Origin: Gilvimarinus algae
GTDB taxonomy: Bacteria > Pseudomonadota > Gammaproteobacteria > Pseudomonadales > Cellvibrionaceae
Reading direction: 5' to 3'
Length of the DNA: 64,000 bases
Assembly (NCBI RefSeq): GCF_030518215.1
Contig: NZ_JAULRT010000035.1
Coordinates: 124,001 to 188,000 of the forward strand
In this document: positions 10,724-21,728 of the stretch, one piece after another
How positions within the stretch are numbered: the stretch's first letter is position 1
Layout: each line of letters starts with the position of its first letter
Notes under the pieces: model-generated
Told to the model about the DNA's origin: nothing
Database searches by the model: none
What the model saw: the letters and a program-made list of their open reading frames with translations, nothing else
Made by a program: the position numbers and the translations under genes

Positions 10724-10775
10724 GCAACGCCTGTTCACGCAGTTGCCGTTACCTAGCGAGGACAGGCGTTAGGTT
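10724..10775. terminator. Bidirectional terminator between SMP-30 and lacI-type genes
   Basis: The arms AACGCCTGT (10726-10734) and ACAGGCGTT (10762-10770) pair over a 27-base loop. T-rich tracts follow on both strands (AGGTTTTT on plus; GCTTTTTATT on minus). The two flanking genes converge here, so it can serve both. Confidence 0.75.
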
Positions 10776-11779
10776 TTTACCGGCCCTGTACTCTCGCGGA
10801 TAATCAGGGTGTGATCGAGCACGATATTTTGAGCGACCATCGGCTCGCCACGCAGCTGTGGCAATAGCAATTCCATGCAAACCCGGCCGATATCGCTCAT
10901 GGGCTGCGCGATGGTCGTCAGTGAAGGGTTGCAGTAGTTGGCGTAGGATATATTGTCAAAACCCAGCACGGAGATATCGTCAGGCACCCGGTAACCACTC
11001 TTGCAAAGAGTCGCGATGCACGCCATGGCCATTTCATCGCTGAACGCGAAAATCGCCGTTGGCGGCTGGGGCTGTTTCATCAAACGGCGGGTAGCCTGTT
11101 CGGACTTTTCCAGTCCGTAGTCACCCACATCAATGCACTGCTCATCAATGGCAAGACCTGCCTGGCGCAGTGCATCTTTGTAGCCAGCCAAGCGATCTTT
11201 CGTGCTGGGGGACTTCAAATTGCCGGCAATTACACCAATACGTGTGTGTCCAAGCGACAGCAAATATTCCACGCCATCGCGCGCCGCGGCGCGGTTATCA
11301 ATGTTGACCTGAGGCAAACCATTGACGGGTACCAGCTCGCAAGCGTTGACCATAGGCGGCAGCTGATTGGCCAGCGGGATGGAGGGTTCCACATCAAAGG
11401 GCAGGCGAGGGCAGAACAGCAGTATGCCATCGGCCTGGCGCGAGCTGACCATGGCGGCAAAAGACCTCTCCCGGGTTTCCATTTCCTGAGTGTCGCCCAG
11501 CAGCAGAGAATAGCCATTTTCCAGCGCAATACTCTCCATGGCGCGAATCACAGGGTAATTAAAGGCACTGATGGCATCGGGAATAATGGCGACCAGCCTG
11601 TTGGTTTTGGCCTTACGCAGACTAACCCCGAGGCTGTTGGGGGTATACCCGGTGCGGTCAATCACCGCCTGTACCCGTTGGCGGCGCTCTTTGGAAACCA
11701 GCTCTGGATTACGAATCACACGCGACACAGTCGCCGGGGAAACTCCCGCTTCAATGGCGATTTCTCGAATGCCCGTCAC
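10769..11779 (-). CDS. LacI-family transcriptional regulator
   Basis: A 336-residue LacI/GalR repressor. The N-terminal HTH with recognition helix SPATVSRVIRNP (residues 14-25) and hinge-helix region NSLGVSLRKAKTN are followed by the periplasmic-binding-protein-like sensor (VAIIPD, DGILLFCPR, GVIAGNLKSPSTKDRLAGYKD, FAFSDEMAMA, SVLGFDNIS). The start is GTG, preceded by GAGGTGG. It lies downstream of GH97 on the same strand and is the only LacI-type gene in the window. It is the obvious candidate to bind the GAAAACGTTTTC palindromes before GH97 and the TonB receptor, which have the central CpG typical of LacI-family sites. Confidence 0.92.
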   Translation of the reverse strand: MTGIREIAIEAGVSPATVSRVIRNPELVSKERRQRVQAVIDRTGYTPNSLGVSLRKAKTNRLVAIIPDAISAFNYPVIRAMESIALENGYSLLLGDTQEMETRERSFAAMVSSRQADGILLFCPRLPFDVEPSIPLANQLPPMVNACELVPVNGLPQVNIDNRAAARDGVEYLLSLGHTRIGVIAGNLKSPSTKDRLAGYKDALRQAGLAIDEQCIDVGDYGLEKSEQATRRLMKQPQPPTAIFAFSDEMAMACIATLCKSGYRVPDDISVLGFDNISYANYCNPSLTTIAQPMSDIGRVCMELLLPQLRGEPMVAQNIVLDHTLIIRESTGPVKT

Positions 11780-12211: not shown

Positions 12212-14233
12212 TCACGGCAGCTTTTGCAAACTTACCGCAGCGCCACCTCCGGGCGCCAGCTGCAGGCTTAGGGTATCCGCCGCGCCCACCTCCCGGTGGC
12301 TAATGTGATAGGCAGCGGGATTATTACGGTAGTGCGCATCCTTTGCATCGGCGTAGATGATCGCCCGGTAACGCTCGCCCTCGCTGAGAAAATCCAGAGG
12401 CAGCGTCAAGGTTCGCTCCGTCTCGTTGGTAATGGCGCCCAAATACCAGTCATCCCCCCCGCGTTCGCGCCGGGCAATCGCAATGGATTCGCCAATTTCA
12501 CCGGCCAGCACCCGGGTCGTCTCCCAGTCCACCGGGACTTGCTTGATAAACTCAAAGGCGTCCGGGTGCCGCGCGTAATTTTGAGGCAGATCAGATGCCA
12601 TCTGCACCGGCGAATAAACGACAACATAAAGCGCCAATTGCTTTGCCAAGGTTGTGTTCACCTGATTGTTCGGGCGGCTTGGCAGGGTCAACTCAAAAGC
12701 GCCTGGGGTAAAATCCATAGGACCGGAGAGCAAGCGTGTATAAGGCAAAATTACCGTGTGTTCAGGCGGATTACCGCCGTCGTCCGACCAGGCATCGTAT
12801 TCCTGGCCACGGGCCACTTCACGGGATACCAGGTTCGGGTAGGTGCGGCGTTCGCCGGTATCTTTAACCGTTTCGTGCGCGACAACCATGACCTTGTGTT
12901 TCGCCGCCATTTTTGTCACGCGATCGGCATGACGCACAAAACGCTGACCGTGATGATAGTAGCCATTGGTCAAACGTTCTCCGGTTTCAACATAACCGGT
13001 TTTGACCGCCTTCATGCCATGATCGGCGAGAAACTGGTAGGCGTCTTCCAATTGACTCTCGTAATTGTCGACCGCCGCGCCGGTTTCATGATGACCAATA
13101 ATGTAGACTCCCTTGTCTTTTGCATAGTGGGTAACTTCCTCCACATCGTAATCCGGGTAGGCTTGGGTAAAATTGAACTCAGCGCCCTGGCCGTTAAACC
13201 ACTCACTGTCCCAACCAGTGTTCCAGCCCTCGACCAGCACACCGTCAAAGCCGTGCTTAGCCGCAAAATCGATGTATTTTTTGGCGTTTTCAGTGGTAGC
13301 GCCATGCTTGTCACCCTGGGACCAAGTGCCTTTTTCCAGGTGCAGCTCCCACCAAATACCCACGTACTTGCCTGGCTTTACCCAGGAAACATCGCCAAGG
13401 GCGTTGGGATCGTTCAGGTTGAGCGTTAAATAATTGGTAATCAGATCACCGGGTGCTTTCGCTACCTGCAGCGTACGCCAGGGAGTTGCAAAGGGTAAGT
13501 CCACCTGCGCCCGCACTTGAGTGTGCGGCGTCAGCGGAACCAGTTCGGCGGCCAGGGTGTGCGTACCGGTGCGCTTCAGGTTCATGGTGGAGTAATCGTG
13601 CAGAGCCGCCTCGTGCAACACCAGGTAGAGCCCCTTGCCAGTTTTGAACGTCACGGGGGTGTGTACAAGATCCATCTCTTCGACCGGTGTCTCGCGGTAC
13701 AAATATTCGTATTGATTGCCCGCCTGCGCCGGAGTCCACCAGGCGGTGTGATTGCCTGCCAGAGAAAATTCGGTTAATTCCCGGGTAACCGACACCGATG
13801 ATACACCGTCCGCAGCAGGCAACTCATAGCGGAAACCTAAGCCTTCATCGTAGAGCCGAAAAACAATATTGAGCTTTCGCTTAAGGCCCGACTCTTCATG
13901 TAGAGACACGAGAAGTTGATTATAGTGATTGCGAATGTAACGCTCTTCTCCCCAGGGCTGCTCCCAGGTTTGATCGAAACCGGTGCGCGACACACTTGCC
14001 AACGTCAAAGCTTTTGACAGTGGCGCCTGACCTTTAAAATCAAGCCCCAGCGCGGAATCAGCGATCACTTCGTCGCCGCGATAGCTCACCCGATACTGGG
14101 GATGCCCCTGATTATCGAGAAAAAATTGCAGTGTGATATCACCATTAGGGGACTGAGCCTGGATAATCTCAGAAGCTGTTACCGGATGAATGGTGAGCAT
14201 AAGCAGCGCTCCCAAAAGCAAGATCGTTTTCAT
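12212..14233 (-). CDS. Secreted GH97 glycoside hydrolase, predicted inverting alpha-glucosidase
   Basis: A 673-residue protein with a signal peptide (ends near VTASE), the normal GH97 length. An N-terminal beta-sandwich is followed by a barrel and a short C-terminal sheet. Glutamates at 383 (HHETG), 454 (AHETVKDTG), 472 and 478 (REVARGQEYD) have the spacing of the base, calcium-ligand and acid glutamates of the Bacteroides SusB alpha-glucosidase. This favours the inverting, alpha-glucoside-acting subgroup over the retaining alpha-galactosidases. Activity on maltodextrin-like substrates is inferred. The promoter region carries two LacI-type operators about 100-130 bp upstream, and the TonB receptor gene has the same pair. 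Confidence 0.92.
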   Translation of the reverse strand: MKTILLLGALLMLTIHPVTASEIIQAQSPNGDITLQFFLDNQGHPQYRVSYRGDEVIADSALGLDFKGQAPLSKALTLASVSRTGFDQTWEQPWGEERYIRNHYNQLLVSLHEESGLKRKLNIVFRLYDEGLGFRYELPAADGVSSVSVTRELTEFSLAGNHTAWWTPAQAGNQYEYLYRETPVEEMDLVHTPVTFKTGKGLYLVLHEAALHDYSTMNLKRTGTHTLAAELVPLTPHTQVRAQVDLPFATPWRTLQVAKAPGDLITNYLTLNLNDPNALGDVSWVKPGKYVGIWWELHLEKGTWSQGDKHGATTENAKKYIDFAAKHGFDGVLVEGWNTGWDSEWFNGQGAEFNFTQAYPDYDVEEVTHYAKDKGVYIIGHHETGAAVDNYESQLEDAYQFLADHGMKAVKTGYVETGERLTNGYYHHGQRFVRHADRVTKMAAKHKVMVVAHETVKDTGERRTYPNLVSREVARGQEYDAWSDDGGNPPEHTVILPYTRLLSGPMDFTPGAFELTLPSRPNNQVNTTLAKQLALYVVVYSPVQMASDLPQNYARHPDAFEFIKQVPVDWETTRVLAGEIGESIAIARRERGGDDWYLGAITNETERTLTLPLDFLSEGERYRAIIYADAKDAHYRNNPAAYHISHREVGAADTLSLQLAPGGGAAVSLQKLP

Positions 14234-14333
14234 AGTTATTACGTCGTTGTTGTGGTGACTAAAAATTCCAGCGATGAGTCAGTGTAATTTTCCGCTTTTT
14301 GGCTTACTACGGCAGTTACGTTTCTCGGACCAA

Positions 14334-14365
14334 GAAAACGTTTCCAACCCTTTGAAAACGTTTTC
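14334..14365. promoter_or_regulatory. Tandem LacI-type operators upstream of GH97
   Basis: GAAAACGTTTCC (14334-14345, 11 of 12 symmetrical consensus positions) and GAAAACGTTTTC (14354-14365, perfect palindrome) start exactly 20 bp apart, about two helical turns. They lie between the stop of the small secreted gene and the start of GH97. The same pair with the same spacing precedes the TonB receptor. Confidence 0.75.
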
Positions 14366-14386
14366 TTGAGGCGTTTCCTATCTACA

Positions 14387-14827
14387 TCAATTGCAAACAG
14401 CTCTCAATGTCGGCGGGGTGCTGTAACTCCCAGAATGTATCGTAGTGATTGTCGCGCCGCACTGACCGCAGAAATCCGCTACATACTCGTTTGGATAGCT
14501 CGTTGCCAAGCCTTGCCACGCTTGCTCACCAGAGTTGGGACAGTCGTAGGCCGATTGGACCACAAAGCTGGGGGACTGGCAGTCGCCCGAATTTTCATAG
14601 GGGGCATATACATTGATAGTACAGCTATTGACCTGGCCCGCCTTGATGGTTCGGTCCGCAACGACAGCACTGCCGTCTTTCGCCCTGTCCTGGCGTACCA
14701 ATTGGCTAGGACCGGATTGCTGATACACCACCTCCCAAGTCACAGGAACATCTCCTGCCAAGGCAGAGCCGCAACACAAGACAAAAGCAGTAAACGTTAA
14801 AGCGCTACAATTTTTTACTCTGAACAT
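14387..14827 (-). CDS. Small secreted cysteine-rich protein, unknown function
   Basis: A 146-residue protein with an N-terminal signal peptide (hydrophobic to about residue 24, cleavage near ALAGD). The mature part has six cysteines, in SCTINV, GDCQSP, YDCPNS, DFCGQC and the final AVCN, which suggests disulfides in the periplasm or outside the cell. I do not recognise a family. It lies between sapC and GH97 on the same strand, 130 bp after sapC, and ends just before the GH97 operator pair. Its place in a glycan uptake cluster hints at a binding or accessory role, but this is only context. Confidence 0.6.
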   Translation of the reverse strand: MFRVKNCSALTFTAFVLCCGSALAGDVPVTWEVVYQQSGPSQLVRQDRAKDGSAVVADRTIKAGQVNSCTINVYAPYENSGDCQSPSFVVQSAYDCPNSGEQAWQGLATSYPNEYVADFCGQCGATITTIHSGSYSTPPTLRAVCN

Positions 14828-14957
14828 AGCTATATCCTATTTTCCGGGGCTATTAGAAACACCCTTTTCCAATGGTCCCGCTCCTCAATGATTCAAGTCC
14901 CTCTGAAAAATTTTCACCTCAAAAAGTAGACAGTCGACACAAACGAGAATTTGTGAA

Positions 14958-15641
14958 TTATCCCGCCAATTCGGCTATTCTTGTCATGTTGTACAGCGAG
15001 AAATTCTGGGCATAAAGGTATCTGGAAATTTTCATAAATTGTGATCTTTTATTGTCGTCATCGATTCTCGCAACCCGGTTAATATCGACACTGTAGAGTC
15101 CTTCCATTGTGACTTTTCTGCCGTCTTTATAGGTGACCTCCGCCTGAAGCTTTGAAACAAGATCCATAGCCAATACATTCTGTATGTAATCCTCAGTCTC
15201 TTCACGCCCTCTATAAATCTCTCCCAGAGCAGCCATAGCGTCATTGAGAGCTGTAGCATTTTCACCGAATATCGGCTCACCTTTACCCACCCCCGGCGAG
15301 TCAATATCCAAACCTATTACAGGGTCCGATTCCGGGGAGGACTCCACAGCCACCAAAGGCAGTCTTTGAATGCTCAAAGGAAGAGCCCCATCATCAACGC
15401 GCCCTCTACTCAAAAGGGTAGATTCTTCTGAGATGCCAAGAAGCACCGAGCATGAGAATTTACCCGTCTGCCCATCTTTCACCAGAACGATTGGGTAGTG
15501 AAACATCAGCGTAGAAAACTCGGAAATCACAACCGGAACCAGCCGACGGTGAAAATAGGCTTTTCGTGCTTCAGAAAAGTCGACCCGTAACTGTCTATGA
15601 GAATGCTCTTCCAGGATTTCTACGCTAGGCATTGTCGTCAT
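14958..15641 (-). CDS. SapC family protein
   Basis: A 227-residue protein matching the SapC family: the early FSEARKAYFHRRLVPVVISEFSTLMFHYPIVLVKD block and the GEPIFGENATALNDAMAALGEIYRGREETEDYIQ segment are characteristic. It is named after a gene of the Campylobacter S-layer locus but the biochemical role of the family is unknown. The start codon overlaps the halogenase stop codon (ATGA), so translation of the two is probably coupled. In many polysaccharide-degrading Proteobacteria the trio TonB receptor, tryptophan-halogenase-like protein and SapC is found together, as here. Confidence 0.88.
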   Translation of the reverse strand: MTTMPSVEILEEHSHRQLRVDFSEARKAYFHRRLVPVVISEFSTLMFHYPIVLVKDGQTGKFSCSVLLGISEESTLLSRGRVDDGALPLSIQRLPLVAVESSPESDPVIGLDIDSPGVGKGEPIFGENATALNDAMAALGEIYRGREETEDYIQNVLAMDLVSKLQAEVTYKDGRKVTMEGLYSVDINRVARIDDDNKRSQFMKISRYLYAQNFSLYNMTRIAELAG

Positions 15642-17185
15642 ATTCGTTGTAATCCGTGCTCATTTATGGCATTCAAAAGGGTCCGATTTTGCGGCAAAAA
15701 CGCCAGAACTTTGTCGGTTTCTTTTCTGTACTGGTCAATTTTGGCTTGTATTTTCTCCAAGCGATTTTTTCCCGGATCATGGGTCGAGGTTTTAAAATTC
15801 ATCCCATACATGACGAAGCAGTAACTTTCCAAGGGAAAGACATCCGCTCTACTCAGAAAATCCAGAACAGAAGGACTCTTCTCCTTCCATCTTTCAAGCT
15901 TGTCGATCAGACTTGCAGGAATTGAGCTTGCGCTCGTATTGTCTCGCCAGAAGGGGGTGTCTTTCCGGCTGGACAGGCAATAGTGAAGCTTTAAGAACTC
16001 GATAATCGAGTTCCAGCGATACTGGAAGATGTCGTTGAACTGCTTCTCGCAGCGCCAAAGCTCAGAGCGCCGCAATGGTAGTTTTTCGGCTATCCAGTAA
16101 GCTGATAGCTCGACAAGCAGTATTGAAGATGCTTCCAGTGGCTCGACGAAACCGGCGGATAAGCCCACTGCAACACAGTTTTTGACCCAAAACCGCTCCC
16201 TGTGGCCGGGCGTATACCGAATTGATTTAATTGGTAGATCCCTGGATTTTTCCCCAAGGTGCCGTCTGAGCACCTGCTCAGCGTCGCTATCGCTGCAATA
16301 CCGGCTGGAGTAGACGTGACCAACTCCGCGCCGGCTTTGTAAACCGATATCCCATATCCAGCCAGATCCTGTCGCCGTTGACACCGTGTGACTGGCAATT
16401 GCTCCTGCTTGATCGTAAGGGCACTGAACCGCCAATGCTCGGTCACAGAAAAGCACTTCTGATCTGTCAGCAAAAGGAATATGGAAGTGCTTATCAATCA
16501 GCACACCACTGAAACCGGAACAATCGATATAGAAGTCTCCCGGCAGCTCAGTATTATCCTGCAGAATCAGAGAGGATATAGCGCCATCCTCCTCCGTACG
16601 AACGCCAGTTACATCACTGACTTTGTGAACAACGTTCAGCGTCTCAATGCAGTGTTTCTTAATAAATTCTGAGAACTTATGGGTATCCAAATGATAGGCG
16701 TAGTTGAGTACGCCTTGGTATTGCGGGGTGGTAATCGCTTTGGGCGCCAGCCCCGCTTCACATGCCGCCTCTTGGTAACAGGATGCCGTTGAATAGGATA
16801 GATCCTCAGTGTTTAAATCACAGCCTAACCAATGAATCAGTGAATTAAGAGGCGCAAAGTAGGCCGGCAGCATAAGCGGATGATAGTAAAAATCAGACTC
16901 CGAGCCATCGACCCAGCGATTAAAGCGCGCGCCTTGTTTGAAGGTTGCATCGCAAGCGCGTATAAAATCAGCTTCGCAAACACCCAAATCCTTAAGAGTC
17001 GTTCGCATAGACGGCCAGGTTCCCTCGCCGACCCCCACAGTGCCCACTGTGGGAGACTCCACTAGCGTAACGGTGAGATTCCGCCCTTGCTCTAAAGCAC
17101 ACTTGGCCGCGAGAATACCAGCTGTAATCCATCCGGCCGTGCCACCGCCGACTACTACTATGTTTTTTATACTATCGCTACGCAT
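15638..17185 (-). CDS. Flavin-dependent tryptophan-halogenase family protein
   Basis: A 515-residue flavoprotein of the PrnA/RebH family. It has the FAD-binding GGGTAGW (residues 13-19), a lysine at 83 (DATFKQGARF) where halogenases hold the HOCl-directing lysine, and a glutamate at 351 in EPLEASS where they hold the catalytic glutamate. The WxWxIP signature that keeps them from acting as monooxygenases appears as W276-I-W278-D-I-G281, so the proline is lost. The substrate is unknown; the genes around it (TonB receptor, SapC, GH97) do not suggest free tryptophan. It overlaps sapC by 4 bases and follows the receptor gene by 149 bp. Confidence 0.85.
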   Translation of the reverse strand: MRSDSIKNIVVVGGGTAGWITAGILAAKCALEQGRNLTVTLVESPTVGTVGVGEGTWPSMRTTLKDLGVCEADFIRACDATFKQGARFNRWVDGSESDFYYHPLMLPAYFAPLNSLIHWLGCDLNTEDLSYSTASCYQEAACEAGLAPKAITTPQYQGVLNYAYHLDTHKFSEFIKKHCIETLNVVHKVSDVTGVRTEEDGAISSLILQDNTELPGDFYIDCSGFSGVLIDKHFHIPFADRSEVLFCDRALAVQCPYDQAGAIASHTVSTATGSGWIWDIGLQSRRGVGHVYSSRYCSDSDAEQVLRRHLGEKSRDLPIKSIRYTPGHRERFWVKNCVAVGLSAGFVEPLEASSILLVELSAYWIAEKLPLRRSELWRCEKQFNDIFQYRWNSIIEFLKLHYCLSSRKDTPFWRDNTSASSIPASLIDKLERWKEKSPSVLDFLSRADVFPLESYCFVMYGMNFKTSTHDPGKNRLEKIQAKIDQYRKETDKVLAFLPQNRTLLNAINEHGLQRI

Positions 17186-17276
17186 TTTTTCTTAAGAGCC
17201 AAGTTGGAGTTTCCCATGGACTGTCTTTTAGTCATGACAGCCCCACCTTGCAAAAGCGAGGGTCAGGCCAGTACGG

Positions 17277-17315
17277 GAGAAACTTTGGCACCGTTAACAC
17301 GCGCCAAAGTTTCTC
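17277..17315 (-). other. Perfect 13-bp hairpin between TonB receptor and halogenase genes
   Basis: GAGAAACTTTGGC (17277-17289) and GCCAAAGTTTCTC (17303-17315) are perfect inverse copies around a 13-base loop. The hairpin sits about 20 bases after the receptor stop codon on the minus strand. No T tract follows, so it more likely protects the receptor mRNA end or lowers read-through than acts as a classic terminator. Confidence 0.7.
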
Positions 17316-17334
17316 TGTCGCCTAGACGTCGAGG

Positions 17335-20292
17335 CTAGAAAGTGGCGCGAACCCCCACCGAGTAGCGCGGCCCGCTCTCTTCAGCCAATAGGAACTGGTT
17401 GGAGAACCGCCCGTGCCACTTGGTTTCCTCTCCGGTCAGATTGATGCCTTCCAGGAAAATCGAAACATTGTCTGTCAGGTTGTAGTTAGCGCTGATATCC
17501 AACTGACCATAACCCTCAACAAAAGTAGGTTCCGCCACCCCGCCTTGATCAAGCGATTGCAAGAACTCGTCCCGGTAGTTATAGGCAAGCCGTGCAGAAT
17601 AGGTCTCATTTTCGTAGAACCCGACAATATTGTAGGAATCGCTTAACCCAACTAGGGCAAAGCCCTGATCAAACTTAGACCTGTCGTACTCCGCATTGGT
17701 ATCGACAAACGTCGCGTTAGCCATCATGCCAAAGCCGCTGCCGCCAAACATATGCTGGACTGACAACTCATAGCCGTTCACATCAGCGGTTTCCACGTTT
17801 GACGGCTTGGTAACCGAAAACTCAATCACTTCGTCGTTGGGATCGACGATATCCGAGGGCGCGCCACCCGGCGGAATCAAGTTAATGCTTCCCGTTGCCG
17901 GGTCGGTAATCGGCTCGCCGTCTTCGCCGATAAAGGTCTGACCGCTGGTTGCATTGACGATGAAGTTGTCAACCTGCTTGTAGAAAACCCCGATCGAGGC
18001 GTAGCTTCCGGGAGCGTAGTACCACTCCAGAGAGAGGTCGATATTGTCAGACTCCAGCGGTTTCAGATCAGGGTTACCCGCCGTAACGGGATAAGGGCCA
18101 TTCTGCTTAAGATCCCTGAACTCAAGGTTTGGCCGAAGCTCCTGCATGGATGGCCGTGTAATGGTCTTGGAATAGGCTGCGCGTGCGACCAACTCTTCCG
18201 TTAAATCAATTTTGAAGCTCACATTGGGCAAGAAGACGGCATAATCGGACTCAAGCTGCGTAGGCGTGACAGGGGATAGAACTTCATTCAGAACTTCTGC
18301 GCCCTCAGCCTCTACCCTAAGAATAGACGCCAGGTTACCGGTAATTGTAAGATCGGTTTTTTCGTATCGAAGGCCCGCTACCACGTCATAGGGAAGCCCG
18401 CCAAGATCACCGGCAAACTCCAGCTGCGTATAAAGCGCTAAAATGTCTTCTTCAACGTCGTAAGATTCCGAAGGGACTTCAGCCGTTGTGAAGGGGATAC
18501 CAACATGGCCTTCATAAATTTCACGAAACTCATCATGATCAAATTCAAGCCACTGAGTCTGTATGTTGCCGCTACCGCTGACGCCGCTTAGAAAATCAGA
18601 CCCGGCATCAAGCACCGATATTTGCGGCGGTGTAATTTCTGTCCAGAAATACTCGCCACCACAGAACATGCAGTTCAATGTGGCACCCGGACCGACATAA
18701 GCCCGCGGCTCGTTCTCAGCGACAATTGCCGCCTCTTGTTCGGTCAGCCCACGGCCGGTCGTAAACTGCTGTCGGTCTTTTGCACGACTTTTAAACGAAA
18801 GGCCAAAATCCGCCTTTATTAAACCCGAGGAATCGTTGGAATCAAACGCCCCGGCGATCTTCAGTTGATCGATGGTGTCATTGACTACACGGCCGTTGCG
18901 GATGGTAAAGCCAGGCCGCAGGTTGTCAGGATCAAGATAGTCACTGTTGGGAATGGTCAGCTGGCCATTTGCGTCGGGCTGATAAGGAACCGAACCCGTG
19001 CCTGACTCAAACCCGGAAATCGCCGGAATAAATCCATCACCCAAATCCCAGGTTAAACGATTACGATAGCCCATCGTCACTTGAGAATTACCGAAGCCCA
19101 TAGGATCGTCGTACTCAGATTCAGAGCGATACGCATCTACAGAAAGGCTGAGGGTGTCGGTGATATTCCAACCTAGATTCAAACCGCCAACCAAAGTGTT
19201 GGATTTCCGGTTCTCTTTAATCGCATTGAACTCCGTCGCCTGAACAACGCCCTCACCCTCGCGCCGATCGGCGATAAAGTGAGTCACAGTGCCATTTTCA
19301 TCAGCAACCACATCTCGCCAATCTGGCCGACTGCCGAACCAATGGACCAGCATATTCTGATCGCGCAAGAGCTCAAACTCGGAGTAGAGTACATCCGCTG
19401 TCAGGGTAAGGTCTTCCGTCGGAGCAAACTGCAGCACTAAATTGGCGTTGTCTCGGGTGCGCTTATCGCGCTGCACCTGAATAAAGTGGTTCTGCGGCAG
19501 GTATAGACGCCCCTCGGGGTTGGCATTGGAGCGAAGCTCTGACGCATCCGGGTATAGGTTTGACCCCGAATCGGCTTCCACCCGAGCCCAGTTGGCATTG
19601 GTAACACGGTTCACGGTGGATTTGCGCTCGAAATGATTGTAGGCGAAGAGTACGCCCAGAGTATCGTCTGCAAAATTACCACTATAGAGAATAGAGGCTT
19701 GCGGACTGCCCTCTTCGGCTAAAGTTTCGTAACTGTACTTGACGGTGCCGGCCACTTTGTTGCCAACATCAAAAGGACGGGGGGTTTGTAAGTCAATGAC
19801 CGAACCAATACCACCAGAGTCCGTAAGAGCAGAGCCTGTTTTGTTGACCACGATAGAGCTGACCATCTCTGATGCCAGGGTATCAAACTCAAAGTCGCGG
19901 TTGATATTCTCTGAAGTCAGCTGACGACCGTTCAGTGTCACCACGTTAAAACCGGGACCAAAACCGCGAACGGTAACAAATTTACCCTCGCCGCCTTCGC
20001 GATTAATTGAAACCCCTGGAATTCGCTGCAAGGACTCCGCCAAGTTGGTATCGGGAAACTTACCAATGTCCTCTGCGTTAATGACATCCACGACGCCAGA
20101 AGCATCACGTTTTTCATCCATAGCCGAGGTCAAGGCTTGTCTTACACCCGTAACGATAACTTCTTCAAGCATTGATGCGCCTTGCGCTTGCTCGCCTTCC
20201 TGGGCAATGGCCAATTGCCCCACACCTGCCAGGGCACAGCCCGCTACGGCACTGGCCAGGAGATTTCGTTTGAATCGTGTATGAGATTTCAT
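17335..20292 (-). CDS. TonB-dependent outer-membrane receptor (large carbohydrate-type)
   Basis: A 985-residue protein with a signal peptide (ends near AIAQE), a TonB-box-like EEVIVTG stretch around residues 43-49, a plug domain (about 50-170: SLQRIPGVSINREGGEGKF, TVRGFGPGFNVVTLNGRQL) and a long beta-barrel ending in the outer-membrane signature VGVRATF with terminal Phe. Its length and plug resemble the Xanthomonas/Caulobacter carbohydrate receptors. It probably imports a glucan or maltodextrin-like oligosaccharide, judged from the adjacent GH97. A cysteine pair (NCMFCGG, about residue 545) sits in an extracellular loop region. Transcription likely starts after the tandem operators at 20523-20554, giving a structured leader of about 200 bases. 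Confidence 0.92.
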   Translation of the reverse strand: MKSHTRFKRNLLASAVAGCALAGVGQLAIAQEGEQAQGASMLEEVIVTGVRQALTSAMDEKRDASGVVDVINAEDIGKFPDTNLAESLQRIPGVSINREGGEGKFVTVRGFGPGFNVVTLNGRQLTSENINRDFEFDTLASEMVSSIVVNKTGSALTDSGGIGSVIDLQTPRPFDVGNKVAGTVKYSYETLAEEGSPQASILYSGNFADDTLGVLFAYNHFERKSTVNRVTNANWARVEADSGSNLYPDASELRSNANPEGRLYLPQNHFIQVQRDKRTRDNANLVLQFAPTEDLTLTADVLYSEFELLRDQNMLVHWFGSRPDWRDVVADENGTVTHFIADRREGEGVVQATEFNAIKENRKSNTLVGGLNLGWNITDTLSLSVDAYRSESEYDDPMGFGNSQVTMGYRNRLTWDLGDGFIPAISGFESGTGSVPYQPDANGQLTIPNSDYLDPDNLRPGFTIRNGRVVNDTIDQLKIAGAFDSNDSSGLIKADFGLSFKSRAKDRQQFTTGRGLTEQEAAIVAENEPRAYVGPGATLNCMFCGGEYFWTEITPPQISVLDAGSDFLSGVSGSGNIQTQWLEFDHDEFREIYEGHVGIPFTTAEVPSESYDVEEDILALYTQLEFAGDLGGLPYDVVAGLRYEKTDLTITGNLASILRVEAEGAEVLNEVLSPVTPTQLESDYAVFLPNVSFKIDLTEELVARAAYSKTITRPSMQELRPNLEFRDLKQNGPYPVTAGNPDLKPLESDNIDLSLEWYYAPGSYASIGVFYKQVDNFIVNATSGQTFIGEDGEPITDPATGSINLIPPGGAPSDIVDPNDEVIEFSVTKPSNVETADVNGYELSVQHMFGGSGFGMMANATFVDTNAEYDRSKFDQGFALVGLSDSYNIVGFYENETYSARLAYNYRDEFLQSLDQGGVAEPTFVEGYGQLDISANYNLTDNVSIFLEGINLTGEETKWHGRFSNQFLLAEESGPRYSVGVRATF

Positions 20293-20599
20293 TGGCGGCT
20301 CCTCGTTATTATGTAGTCGCTGTTATTGTGATTGGATAAGACATTCGTAGGTCGCGCCGTACATGGACGGCTTAACTCTGCAACCTGACCTGCGAATACT
20401 TTCTGTCAGCGTTCAGTCACGCTGATCTTGTCGGCCGGTTTTATTTGTATGGCGGTACCGACTCGGCAATCCTAATGCGGCGCATTTAAGGGTGTCTATA
20501 CAACGGAAGTGGGGACATACCTGAAAACGTTTTCAGGTACTGGAAAACGTTTTCAGACAGGCGGTTTCGGTCAAGCGCCGAGGGGTTTAAAGCGGGTAT
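20293..20599 (-). other. Structured 5' leader and control region of the TonB receptor gene
   Basis: Besides the tandem operators, this gene-free stretch contains two hairpins on the receptor strand: TCAGCGT/ACGCTGA (20406-20425, perfect 7-bp stem, 6-base loop) and a nested one with outer arms 20344-20353/20387-20396 (10 bp, one G-T type mismatch) and inner arms GCCGT/ACGGC (20356-20371). No known riboswitch class is recognised. Confidence 0.5.
20523..20554. promoter_or_regulatory. Tandem LacI-type operators upstream of the TonB receptor
   Basis: Two perfect GAAAACGTTTTC palindromes (20523-20534 and 20543-20554) start exactly 20 bp apart. The first extends to CTGAAAACGTTTTCAG. Spacing and core match the pair before GH97, which implies one regulator for both genes; the LacI-type gene at 10769-11779 is the likely one. 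Confidence 0.8.
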
Positions 20600-21505
20600 T
20601 TAACGAGCGAAAAAGAACAAATAGATCAGCAGAGCGTAGAGCGCGTACTGCAAGCTGTAGTACAAACGCGTGTTGTAGGCCTTCAGCTTTTTACCTAGGC
20701 GCCTCAATTGATACACATGCGCAAAACTGCGATTGAGCCAACCCACTTTATCACCCGGCAGGTTTTTCGTCGCCGTCGCCGACATGACCAACTGCGAGAA
20801 GGCCCGATTAAGCCAATCAACCGGCGCAAAAGTGACCGGCCGCTTTATATCCAGAAATAACACAATGCGATTGCAATCGGTTTTATTCTCGGCGTAGTGA
20901 ATATAGGTTTCATCAAACATCACCGCTTCACCGTCGCGCCAGTGGTAGCGCTCGCCGTCCACGTCGATGTAACACTCTGGAACGTTAGGCGTTACCAGCC
21001 CCAGATGATAGCGCAGAGATCCGGCATAGGGGTCCCGATGCTTTACCAGGCGCGCTCCGGGGGGCAGCATGGCAAACATGGCCCCCTTGACACTGGGCAG
21101 CCCCGCCAGCAACTGCGTGGTTTTGGGACACAGACGCGCCGCCGAGGTGACGGGCTCGCCATACCAGCTCAAGTAGAAGCGCTTCCAACCTGTGCGAAAG
21201 AAAGAATTAAAGCCCAGATCGTCCAGCTGATCCGAGGCTTTGATCTCGCGGGTGCGATCAAGTGCCAATGCTTCATCGCGAATGAGCTGCCAGTTATCCT
21301 GTAAAACAGACAACTCGGAAAAGGTTGCAACGTCGATGTAGGGCTGACGCTTGACCGCCGAGAACGCATAGAACAGGCAGTTTAACGGTGCCATCAGGTT
21401 GGAATGATCGGTCAGTCGGCGTGTCAAACGCTCGTGACGAACCTTACCTCGCAGCTGTACATAACAGGCCGAAGCAACAAACAGAGCAAATATCAGCAGT
21501 CCCAT
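20600..21505 (-). CDS. Membrane-anchored aspartyl/asparaginyl beta-hydroxylase (LpxO-like)
   Basis: A 301-residue Fe(II)/2-oxoglutarate oxygenase. The iron-binding HRDP motif with the following SLRYHLGL strand, WRDGEAVMFDETYIHYAEN with a second histidine, and RIVLFLDI match the family. A hydrophobic N-terminal helix (MGLLIFALFVASACYVQ) and a C-terminal one (QYALYALLIYLFFF) anchor it in the membrane, as in LpxO, which hydroxylates lipid A acyl chains. The start at 21505 is chosen for its GGAGAGG ribosome-binding site; the frame extends 16 codons further. It is transcribed toward the TonB receptor but separated from it by the operator region. Confidence 0.87.
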   Translation of the reverse strand: MGLLIFALFVASACYVQLRGKVRHERLTRRLTDHSNLMAPLNCLFYAFSAVKRQPYIDVATFSELSVLQDNWQLIRDEALALDRTREIKASDQLDDLGFNSFFRTGWKRFYLSWYGEPVTSAARLCPKTTQLLAGLPSVKGAMFAMLPPGARLVKHRDPYAGSLRYHLGLVTPNVPECYIDVDGERYHWRDGEAVMFDETYIHYAENKTDCNRIVLFLDIKRPVTFAPVDWLNRAFSQLVMSATATKNLPGDKVGWLNRSFAHVYQLRRLGKKLKAYNTRLYYSLQYALYALLIYLFFFAR

Positions 21506-21728
21506 GTAATACCTCTCCATGCTGGGAAAATGCCACGGGCGAACGCACGGCACTGGGCTCAGCGCAGAGCGAAGTCGCTTTTGGAATTATTTTTTGGGCG
21601 GGATAAATCGAAGGTTGTGACCGCCAGTCGGCGGGTAGCCATAAATTAGCTCAGCGGCATTGCGCACGCAAGCACCAGCGTATAAAAGAGTGTTAAGCCC
21701 CTCGCAAACCGGGTATGAGCTCGGAGCA

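Follow-up and report, generated by a model that had tools for sequence, protein, structure and literature searches.

A probable alpha-glucan uptake regulon in Gilvimarinus algae carrying a receptor-linked halogenase homologue and SapC cassette

Introduction

Carbohydrate utilisation loci built around a TonB-dependent transporter (PUL/CUT-like) are the closest described counterpart of the genes reported here. In common with them, the locus in our window (the whole 64,000-nucleotide stretch of Gilvimarinus algae DNA that was analysed) unites a TonB-dependent receptor (TBDR), an exported-looking glycosidase and a LacI-family regulator with shared operator-like sites. It differs from such loci by an added cassette, encoding a flavin-dependent halogenase homologue (FDH) and a SapC family protein.

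For the halogenase homologue, the enzymes BrvH and Xcc4156 provide the point of reference. Both have an open site and do not act on free tryptophan, and peptides have been proposed as their substrates; BrvH and its X. campestris relatives accept free indole in vitro, whereas what these enzymes act on in the cell was still unknown in 2020, according to PMC7336383. The window FDH shares with BrvH, Xcc4156 and 2pyx the PF04820 family, the halogenase Lys and Glu residues and the GxGxxG motif. It has WxWxIG in place of WxWxIP, and it is closer to 2pyx, 9ltb and 9lu2 than to BrvH or Xcc4156.

A literature search, mainly of open texts, returned no description of a cassette combining the receptor, FDH and SapC. 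As a whole, the locus is best explained by LacI-regulated alpha-glucan uptake together with a receptor-tied FDH-SapC cassette that would act on a constant peptide or protein, most simply the receptor itself, an explanation that we advance tentatively, as plausible and somewhat short of probable.

Organisation of the locus

The preliminary description reported five genes in one direction, with ATGA coupling of the halogenase homologue and SapC. Both observations were reproduced: the five open reading frames all lie on the minus strand, and the FDH and SapC genes overlap by 4 bases (15641-15638). The features of the locus and its surroundings are as follows.

20600..21553, minus strand: LpxO-like lipid A hydroxylase homologue, a neighbour (PF05118, 166.4 bits; NF033391, 432.9 bits, cut-off 500)
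20523..20554, no strand: operator-like pair upstream of the receptor, two copies of GAAAACGTTTTC
17335..20292, minus strand: TBDR of the TonB-Xanth-Caul family, 985 aa (TIGR01782, 674 bits, cut-off 310; Pfam barrel and plug)
17277..17315, minus strand: RNA hairpin between the receptor and FDH genes, from folding of the junction
15638..17185, minus strand: FDH, WxWxIG subclass, 515 aa (PF04820, 412.3 bits, cut-off 21)
14958..15641, minus strand: SapC family protein, 227 aa (PF07277, 125.2 bits, cut-off 28.9)
14387..14827, minus strand: orphan Cys-rich protein, 146 aa, secreted-looking, with a putative signal peptide (by eye) followed by six Cys
14334..14365, no strand: operator-like pair upstream of GH97, two GAAAACGTTTTC-type copies, one with a mismatch
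12212..14233, minus strand: GH97 of alpha-glucosidase type, 673 aa, with a putative signal peptide on visual inspection (three GH97 domains, Pfam 350.8 bits, cut-off 32.5)
10769..11779, minus strand: LacI-family regulator (PF00356 and PF13377 over cut-off)

The receptor barrel scores 132.1 bits with Pfam (cut-off 27), and DUF6445 and Cupin_8 are absent from the window locus. The SapC, FDH, receptor, Cys-rich and GH97 genes have a G+C content of 0.465 to 0.546, compared with 0.573 for the window outside the cluster; since other fetched loci of the same genome (mostly receptor loci) average 0.553, this contrast is modest except for SapC and FDH.

Two genes that had been considered possible parts of the same system were set aside. 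In 68 named loci selected by FDH similarity (up to 10 kb on each side, some cut by contig ends), neither the Cys-rich protein nor the upstream Asp/Asn hydroxylase was found, nor was GH97. The Cys-rich protein has no Pfam or NCBIfam match; it was found in its own genome only, both among 38 relatives and, at E ≤ 0.001, among 293 genomes of the order, where three weak matches (0.003-0.006, two with an internal stop) followed. It was absent from two genomes with near loci, in a search run without a positive control, and from the syntenic locus L186 described below. On these grounds this singleton was rejected as a component of the conserved system. The hydroxylase (20600-21553) was likewise rejected, as LpxO-like and present in none of the 68 related loci; its score lies below the NCBIfam LpxO cut-off (432.9 against 500), and it is hence named LpxO-like only.

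Operators, synteny and the likely sugar

The palindrome GAAAACGTTTTC occurs twice upstream of the receptor, at 20523 and 20543, and twice upstream of GH97, at 14334 (one mismatch) and 14354, with starts 20 bp apart in both pairs. At no more than one mismatch, the 64-kb window contains 4 matches against 0.16 expected, a number reached by none of 100 shuffles. In L186, a locus of a Cellvibrio MAG (the same genome as L075), two one-mismatch copies (4401 and 4421) with the same 20 bp spacing precede GH97, and about 4.0 Mb of fetched loci outside the window and L186 contained no further pair so spaced. No operator match was seen upstream of the window LacI gene, in the 139 bp before the GH97 of L185 or in the 239 bp before the receptor of L074.

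L186 also shows the gene order of the window, with LacI, GH97, SapC and FDH on one strand (67.3%, 64%, 48% and, for part of FDH, 57% identity). A second MAG, from Cellvibrionaceae, carries the trio on contig L074 (TBDR 65%, FDH 62% and SapC 45% identical to the window), which stops after SapC; on its contig L185, 139 bp lie between the contig end and a GH97 of 62% identity, which is followed by an alpha-1,3-glucanase and then LacI. The ends of L074 and L185 do not overlap, and the trio likely adjoins this GH97.

As operator pairs are common to the window and L186, and the second window pair lies at the receptor, the receptor operon and GH97 probably form one alpha-glucan regulon. The locus is thus probably an alpha-glucan uptake regulon carrying a receptor-linked FDH-SapC cassette, with the LacI-family regulator probably acting on the operator pairs. 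The original idea of one alpha-glucan-type uptake locus is supported for the receptor, FDH, SapC, GH97 and LacI, by the L186 order, the operator-like pairs and the affinity of GH97, and is unsupported for the Cys-rich protein and the hydroxylase. The expected co-occurrence of GH97 and LacI with SapC and FDH was found in L186 and, for GH97, in none of the 68 FDH-selected loci; since several of these are cut by contig ends, we limit the GH97 link to one relative and likely a second. Separately, in the Cellvibrio-related MAG loci L187, L189 and L190, GH97 is joined to a receptor, FDH and GH13 enzymes, and SapC is absent.

The nearest solved GH97 is the alpha-glucosidase 5hq4 (689.5 bits over residues 26-670), against 218.7 bits for the retaining alpha-galactosidase 5e1q; the NCBIfam model for retaining alpha-galactosidases gives 314, below its cut-off of 800. 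The window enzyme is predicted from these similarities to be of alpha-glucosidase type. In one relative (L185), GH97 is paired with alpha-1,3-glucanase domains. Because this glucanase lies between GH97 and LacI, alpha-1,3-linked glucan is a possible source of the oligosaccharide; the G. algae genome encodes one alpha-1,3-glucanase-type protein, on a different contig.

In the mechanism that we propose, the LacI regulator would occupy the tandem operators of the receptor operon and GH97, and their joint induction by an alpha-gluco-oligosaccharide is probable. Judging from the protein families, the receptor would import the oligosaccharide, possibly derived from alpha-1,3-linked glucan, to the periplasm, and the exported GH97 would split it.

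The halogenase homologue and its partners

The solved structures nearest to FDH are 2pyx (461.4 bits), 9ltb (432) and 9lu2 (425), compared with 246 bits for Xcc4156 (6y1w) and 240 for BrvH (6frl). The PF04820 cut-off of 21 bits is low, and other flavoproteins also match it, for example in an E. coli control. FDH keeps the GxGxxG FAD motif (GGGTAG, near the N-terminus), the catalytic K83 and the Glu of the EPLE segment (E348, E351), which we take to be equivalent to K79 and E346 of PrnA. Loss of the catalytic Lys was ruled out by alignments to solved halogenases and by an alignment of 240 homologues, 230 of which, the window protein included, retain it. In place of WxWxIP the window protein has WIWDIG, and we therefore call it a halogenase homologue, with putative halogenase activity; the motif ends in G (WxWxIG) in 88 of the 240. 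By eye, FDH has no signal peptide. Two further copies in the same genome, L036:9980-11437 and L038:10728-12260, lack the catalytic Lys and Glu in the alignment and are flanked by intact copies.

The window SapC exceeds the PF07277 cut-off (125.2 against 28.9) but is a divergent member of the family: apart from its 45% and 48% identity to the L074 and L186 proteins, it is at most 31% identical to SapC in other genomes compared and at most 29% in seven congeners. It was aligned with 52 references, L099 being left out of 53. The AlphaFold2 model (pLDDT 89.6, pTM 0.86) found no match in a fold search of the PDB (best E 0.17), which leaves an assignment of SapC as an oxygenase or cupin unsupported. 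Solo SapC genes, for which the 17-20 kb fetched showed neither a receptor nor FDH nor an oxygenase, were also seen in L219, L223, L225, L227, L234, L240, L245, L254 and L264-L268, and in the same genome at L030:11094-11858.

DUF6445, a partner in other loci, has an invariant HxD and H in the alignment, with Arg in at least 90% of sequences. The PDB matches of its AlphaFold2 model (pLDDT 92.3) are 2-oxoglutarate/iron oxygenases, 25 of them at E ≤ 0.001 and with TM-scores of 0.25-0.47 by query length, and the model predicts a 2-oxoglutarate/iron oxygenase fold. This fold in a partner, like the WxWxIG motif, would suit a flavin monooxygenase or hydroxylase in place of a halogenase, which would work jointly with SapC and on the same target, a peptide or protein; as FDH retains the halogenase Lys and Glu, we regard this reading as possible but unlikely.

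Distribution of the cassette

Receptor, FDH and SapC constitute a widespread cassette. A TBDR is present in 67 of the 68 named loci retrieved by the window FDH and SapC in 56, together with DUF6445 (30), Cupin_8 (20), GH3 (17), LacI (13), GH13 (4) and GH20 (2), and the same order recurs in loci named as alpha-, beta- and gammaproteobacteria. Further regions were fetched from among the matches listed, 100 of the 136 planned. Caulobacter vibrioides, which served as a control, also has genes matching PF04820 and PF07277. The neighbours of SapC loci, 130 proteins from up to 47 loci (open reading frames of at least 300 aa within 3.5 kb of cassettes), include at least 12 GH3, 5 GH16, 3 agarase-type CBM, 2 alpha-amylase, 10 FecR and 5 LacI proteins, lower bounds from the 25 commonest families per half; one neighbour is a GH5 cellulase.

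FecR was present in all three SapC loci checked gene by gene. One variant of the cassette is preceded by FecR (L077:4515-6238, L079:5005-6614 and L088:5697-6818) and, in the scanned L077 and L079, also by a sigma-70-like factor; genes of similar size occur in other loci. A sigma-70-like factor and FecR ahead of the cassette suggest cell-surface signalling through the receptor. Another glycan setting was seen in L028:3339-5909, L139, L307 and others, where receptors lie beside FDH and GH20 chitobiase-type genes.

The variation in neighbouring glycosidases implies that the glycan changes and the cassette stays constant, and 46 of 49 SapC-linked receptors fall into one clade of 55 rows (FastTree). 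A changing set of glycosidases and a cassette that mostly tracks one receptor clade together argue against chemistry on the sugar. The preliminary description had suggested that an imported alpha-glucan derivative may be modified, and more generally an aromatic group on an imported glycan or glycoside might be halogenated or hydroxylated by FDH and SapC in the cytoplasm. The cassette does sit in uptake loci, and FDH retains its halogenase Lys and Glu. However, because the same cassette adjoins GH3, GH16, agarase-type, GH5, GH13 and GH97 genes as well as FecR loci, and plain glucans have no aromatic group, modification of the alpha-glucan is disfavoured and ligand modification in general appears distinctly unlikely.

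Since FDH and SapC accompany this receptor class whatever the sugar, their role may lie with the receptor itself or with a related protein. We infer, with moderate strength, that the function of the cassette is directed at the receptor or some other constant protein and not at the sugar, and we favour a tailoring reaction whose substrate is a peptide or protein, possibly the receptor; the other alternative raised at the outset, a surface factor modified for uptake, comes close to this. Comparison among loci shows FDH-SapC to be an accessory cassette that goes mostly with one receptor clade, not with one sugar. In the least certain step of the mechanism, FDH and SapC would act in the cytoplasm on a peptide or protein constant to these loci, modifying one of its aromatic side chains; the simplest candidate is the receptor chain prior to export. 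In loci that have them (the window does not), Cupin_8 and DUF6445 would carry out oxygenase chemistry on the same target. Should the receptor indeed be the target, this would be a new type of modification of an outer-membrane protein.

Alternatively, FDH might produce a halogenated indole or comparable small molecule that diffuses away and acts as a signal or in defence once sugar is found. This would accord with the in vitro use of free indole by BrvH and X. campestris relatives (PMC7336383). The locus showed no further biosynthetic gene, and the receptor linkage in 67 of 68 loci also speaks against such a product, which we consider more doubtful still than a modified ligand.

Linkage to the receptor

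Halogenase homologues of this kind are numerous. The G. algae genome contains 21 full FDH genes in 12 clusters (L027-L038), often two or three in a row; they derive from 23 PF04820 matches, two weak pieces (50.8 and 36.7 bits) being left out. Both pieces belong to a single 420-aa frame (C26:35.3-36.3 kb), and L039 showed no TBDR next to it. All 21 lie within 3.3 kb of one of 49 over-cut-off TBDR barrels, although the stretches within 5 kb of such a barrel make up no more than 13% of the genome. Among these many cases, the window locus is a small, apparently regulated and testable one, with a receptor, FDH, SapC, operator-like sites and a likely inducer class.

Distance correlations over the same 22 loci were 0.71 for receptor-SapC, 0.61 for receptor-GH3 and 0.78 for SapC-GH3. 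The mirror-tree test was accordingly discarded as a sign of a cassette-receptor tie, the cassette correlations not being set apart from those of GH3. This lack of a clear excess over GH3 would agree with a historical linkage, with neither FDH nor SapC functionally connected to the receptor, but the proximity of all 21 full genes to receptors and the shared order in loci named as alpha-, beta- and gammaproteobacteria make this highly improbable.

Within the favoured reading, a specific receptor residue was considered. From 187 receptors, sets of 184, 182 and finally 110 were obtained by leaving out cut or weak sequences, copies and those more than 70% identical. A first small alignment already pointed to W318 (window numbering). 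A fast alignment of the 182 placed unrelated Trp residues in this column (19 of 51 receptors with FDH only, 10 of 24 without a downstream cassette gene) and was replaced by a local-pair alignment of the 110. There, Trp occupies the position in 46 of 48 receptors whose operon includes SapC and in 3 of 6 that have SapC nearby, in 4 of 7 with Cupin_8 or DUF6445 and no SapC, in 3 of 36 for which FDH is the sole cassette family, and in 1 of 13 without a cassette, which makes W318 the most discriminating of 142 conserved columns. One of the three in the FDH-only class, L031_13868, has SapC further along its array, beyond the fetched end, and was moved to the SapC-linked class for the tree. Two SapC-linked receptors, L255 and L263, have Phe instead.

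The tree places 5 changes in SapC and 4 in W318; among the 4 independent pairs, a difference in SapC is accompanied on average by one in W318 in 1 pair and is not in 3. Clade receptors of L033, L109, L282, L297 and L314 have W318 without SapC, with L271, on a short contig, as the exception. With only 4-5 independent contrasts and W318 unchanged in most, shared descent explains the residue equally well; W318 behaves as a clade marker and was rejected as proof of receptor modification. A maturation system in which FDH, SapC and the oxygenase partners would halogenate or hydroxylate a receptor side chain before export and so tune its grip on the sugar, the candidate being W318, placed by visual inspection at the outward end of a barrel strand, is in our view rather unlikely in this specific form.

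Against the overall explanation of a receptor-tied cassette acting on a constant peptide or protein, we count this clade-marker behaviour, the GH3-like correlations, SapC genes without a receptor or FDH (e.g. L219, L223 and L264), the SapC model without a fold match, the WxWxIG motif, the operator matches missing upstream of LacI and in the L185 and L074 flanks, and the non-overlapping ends of those two contigs.

A hairpin between receptor and halogenase homologue

The 155-nt receptor-FDH junction of the window folds at -57.9 kcal/mol (z = -5.18 against shuffles). Across the receptor-cassette junctions, 67 of 78 have a folding z below -2, 10 of 88 having been left out for length. In the 110 nt after the receptor stop codon, z falls below -2 for 36 of 49 receptors linked to SapC and for 32 of 35 linked to FDH alone, compared with 2 of 13 that lack a cassette. 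The putative hairpin may lower enzyme expression relative to the receptor, or protect the receptor message; in the proposed mechanism it may thereby permit an excess of receptor over the enzymes. After SapC genes, z was below -2 in 30 of 116 stretches.
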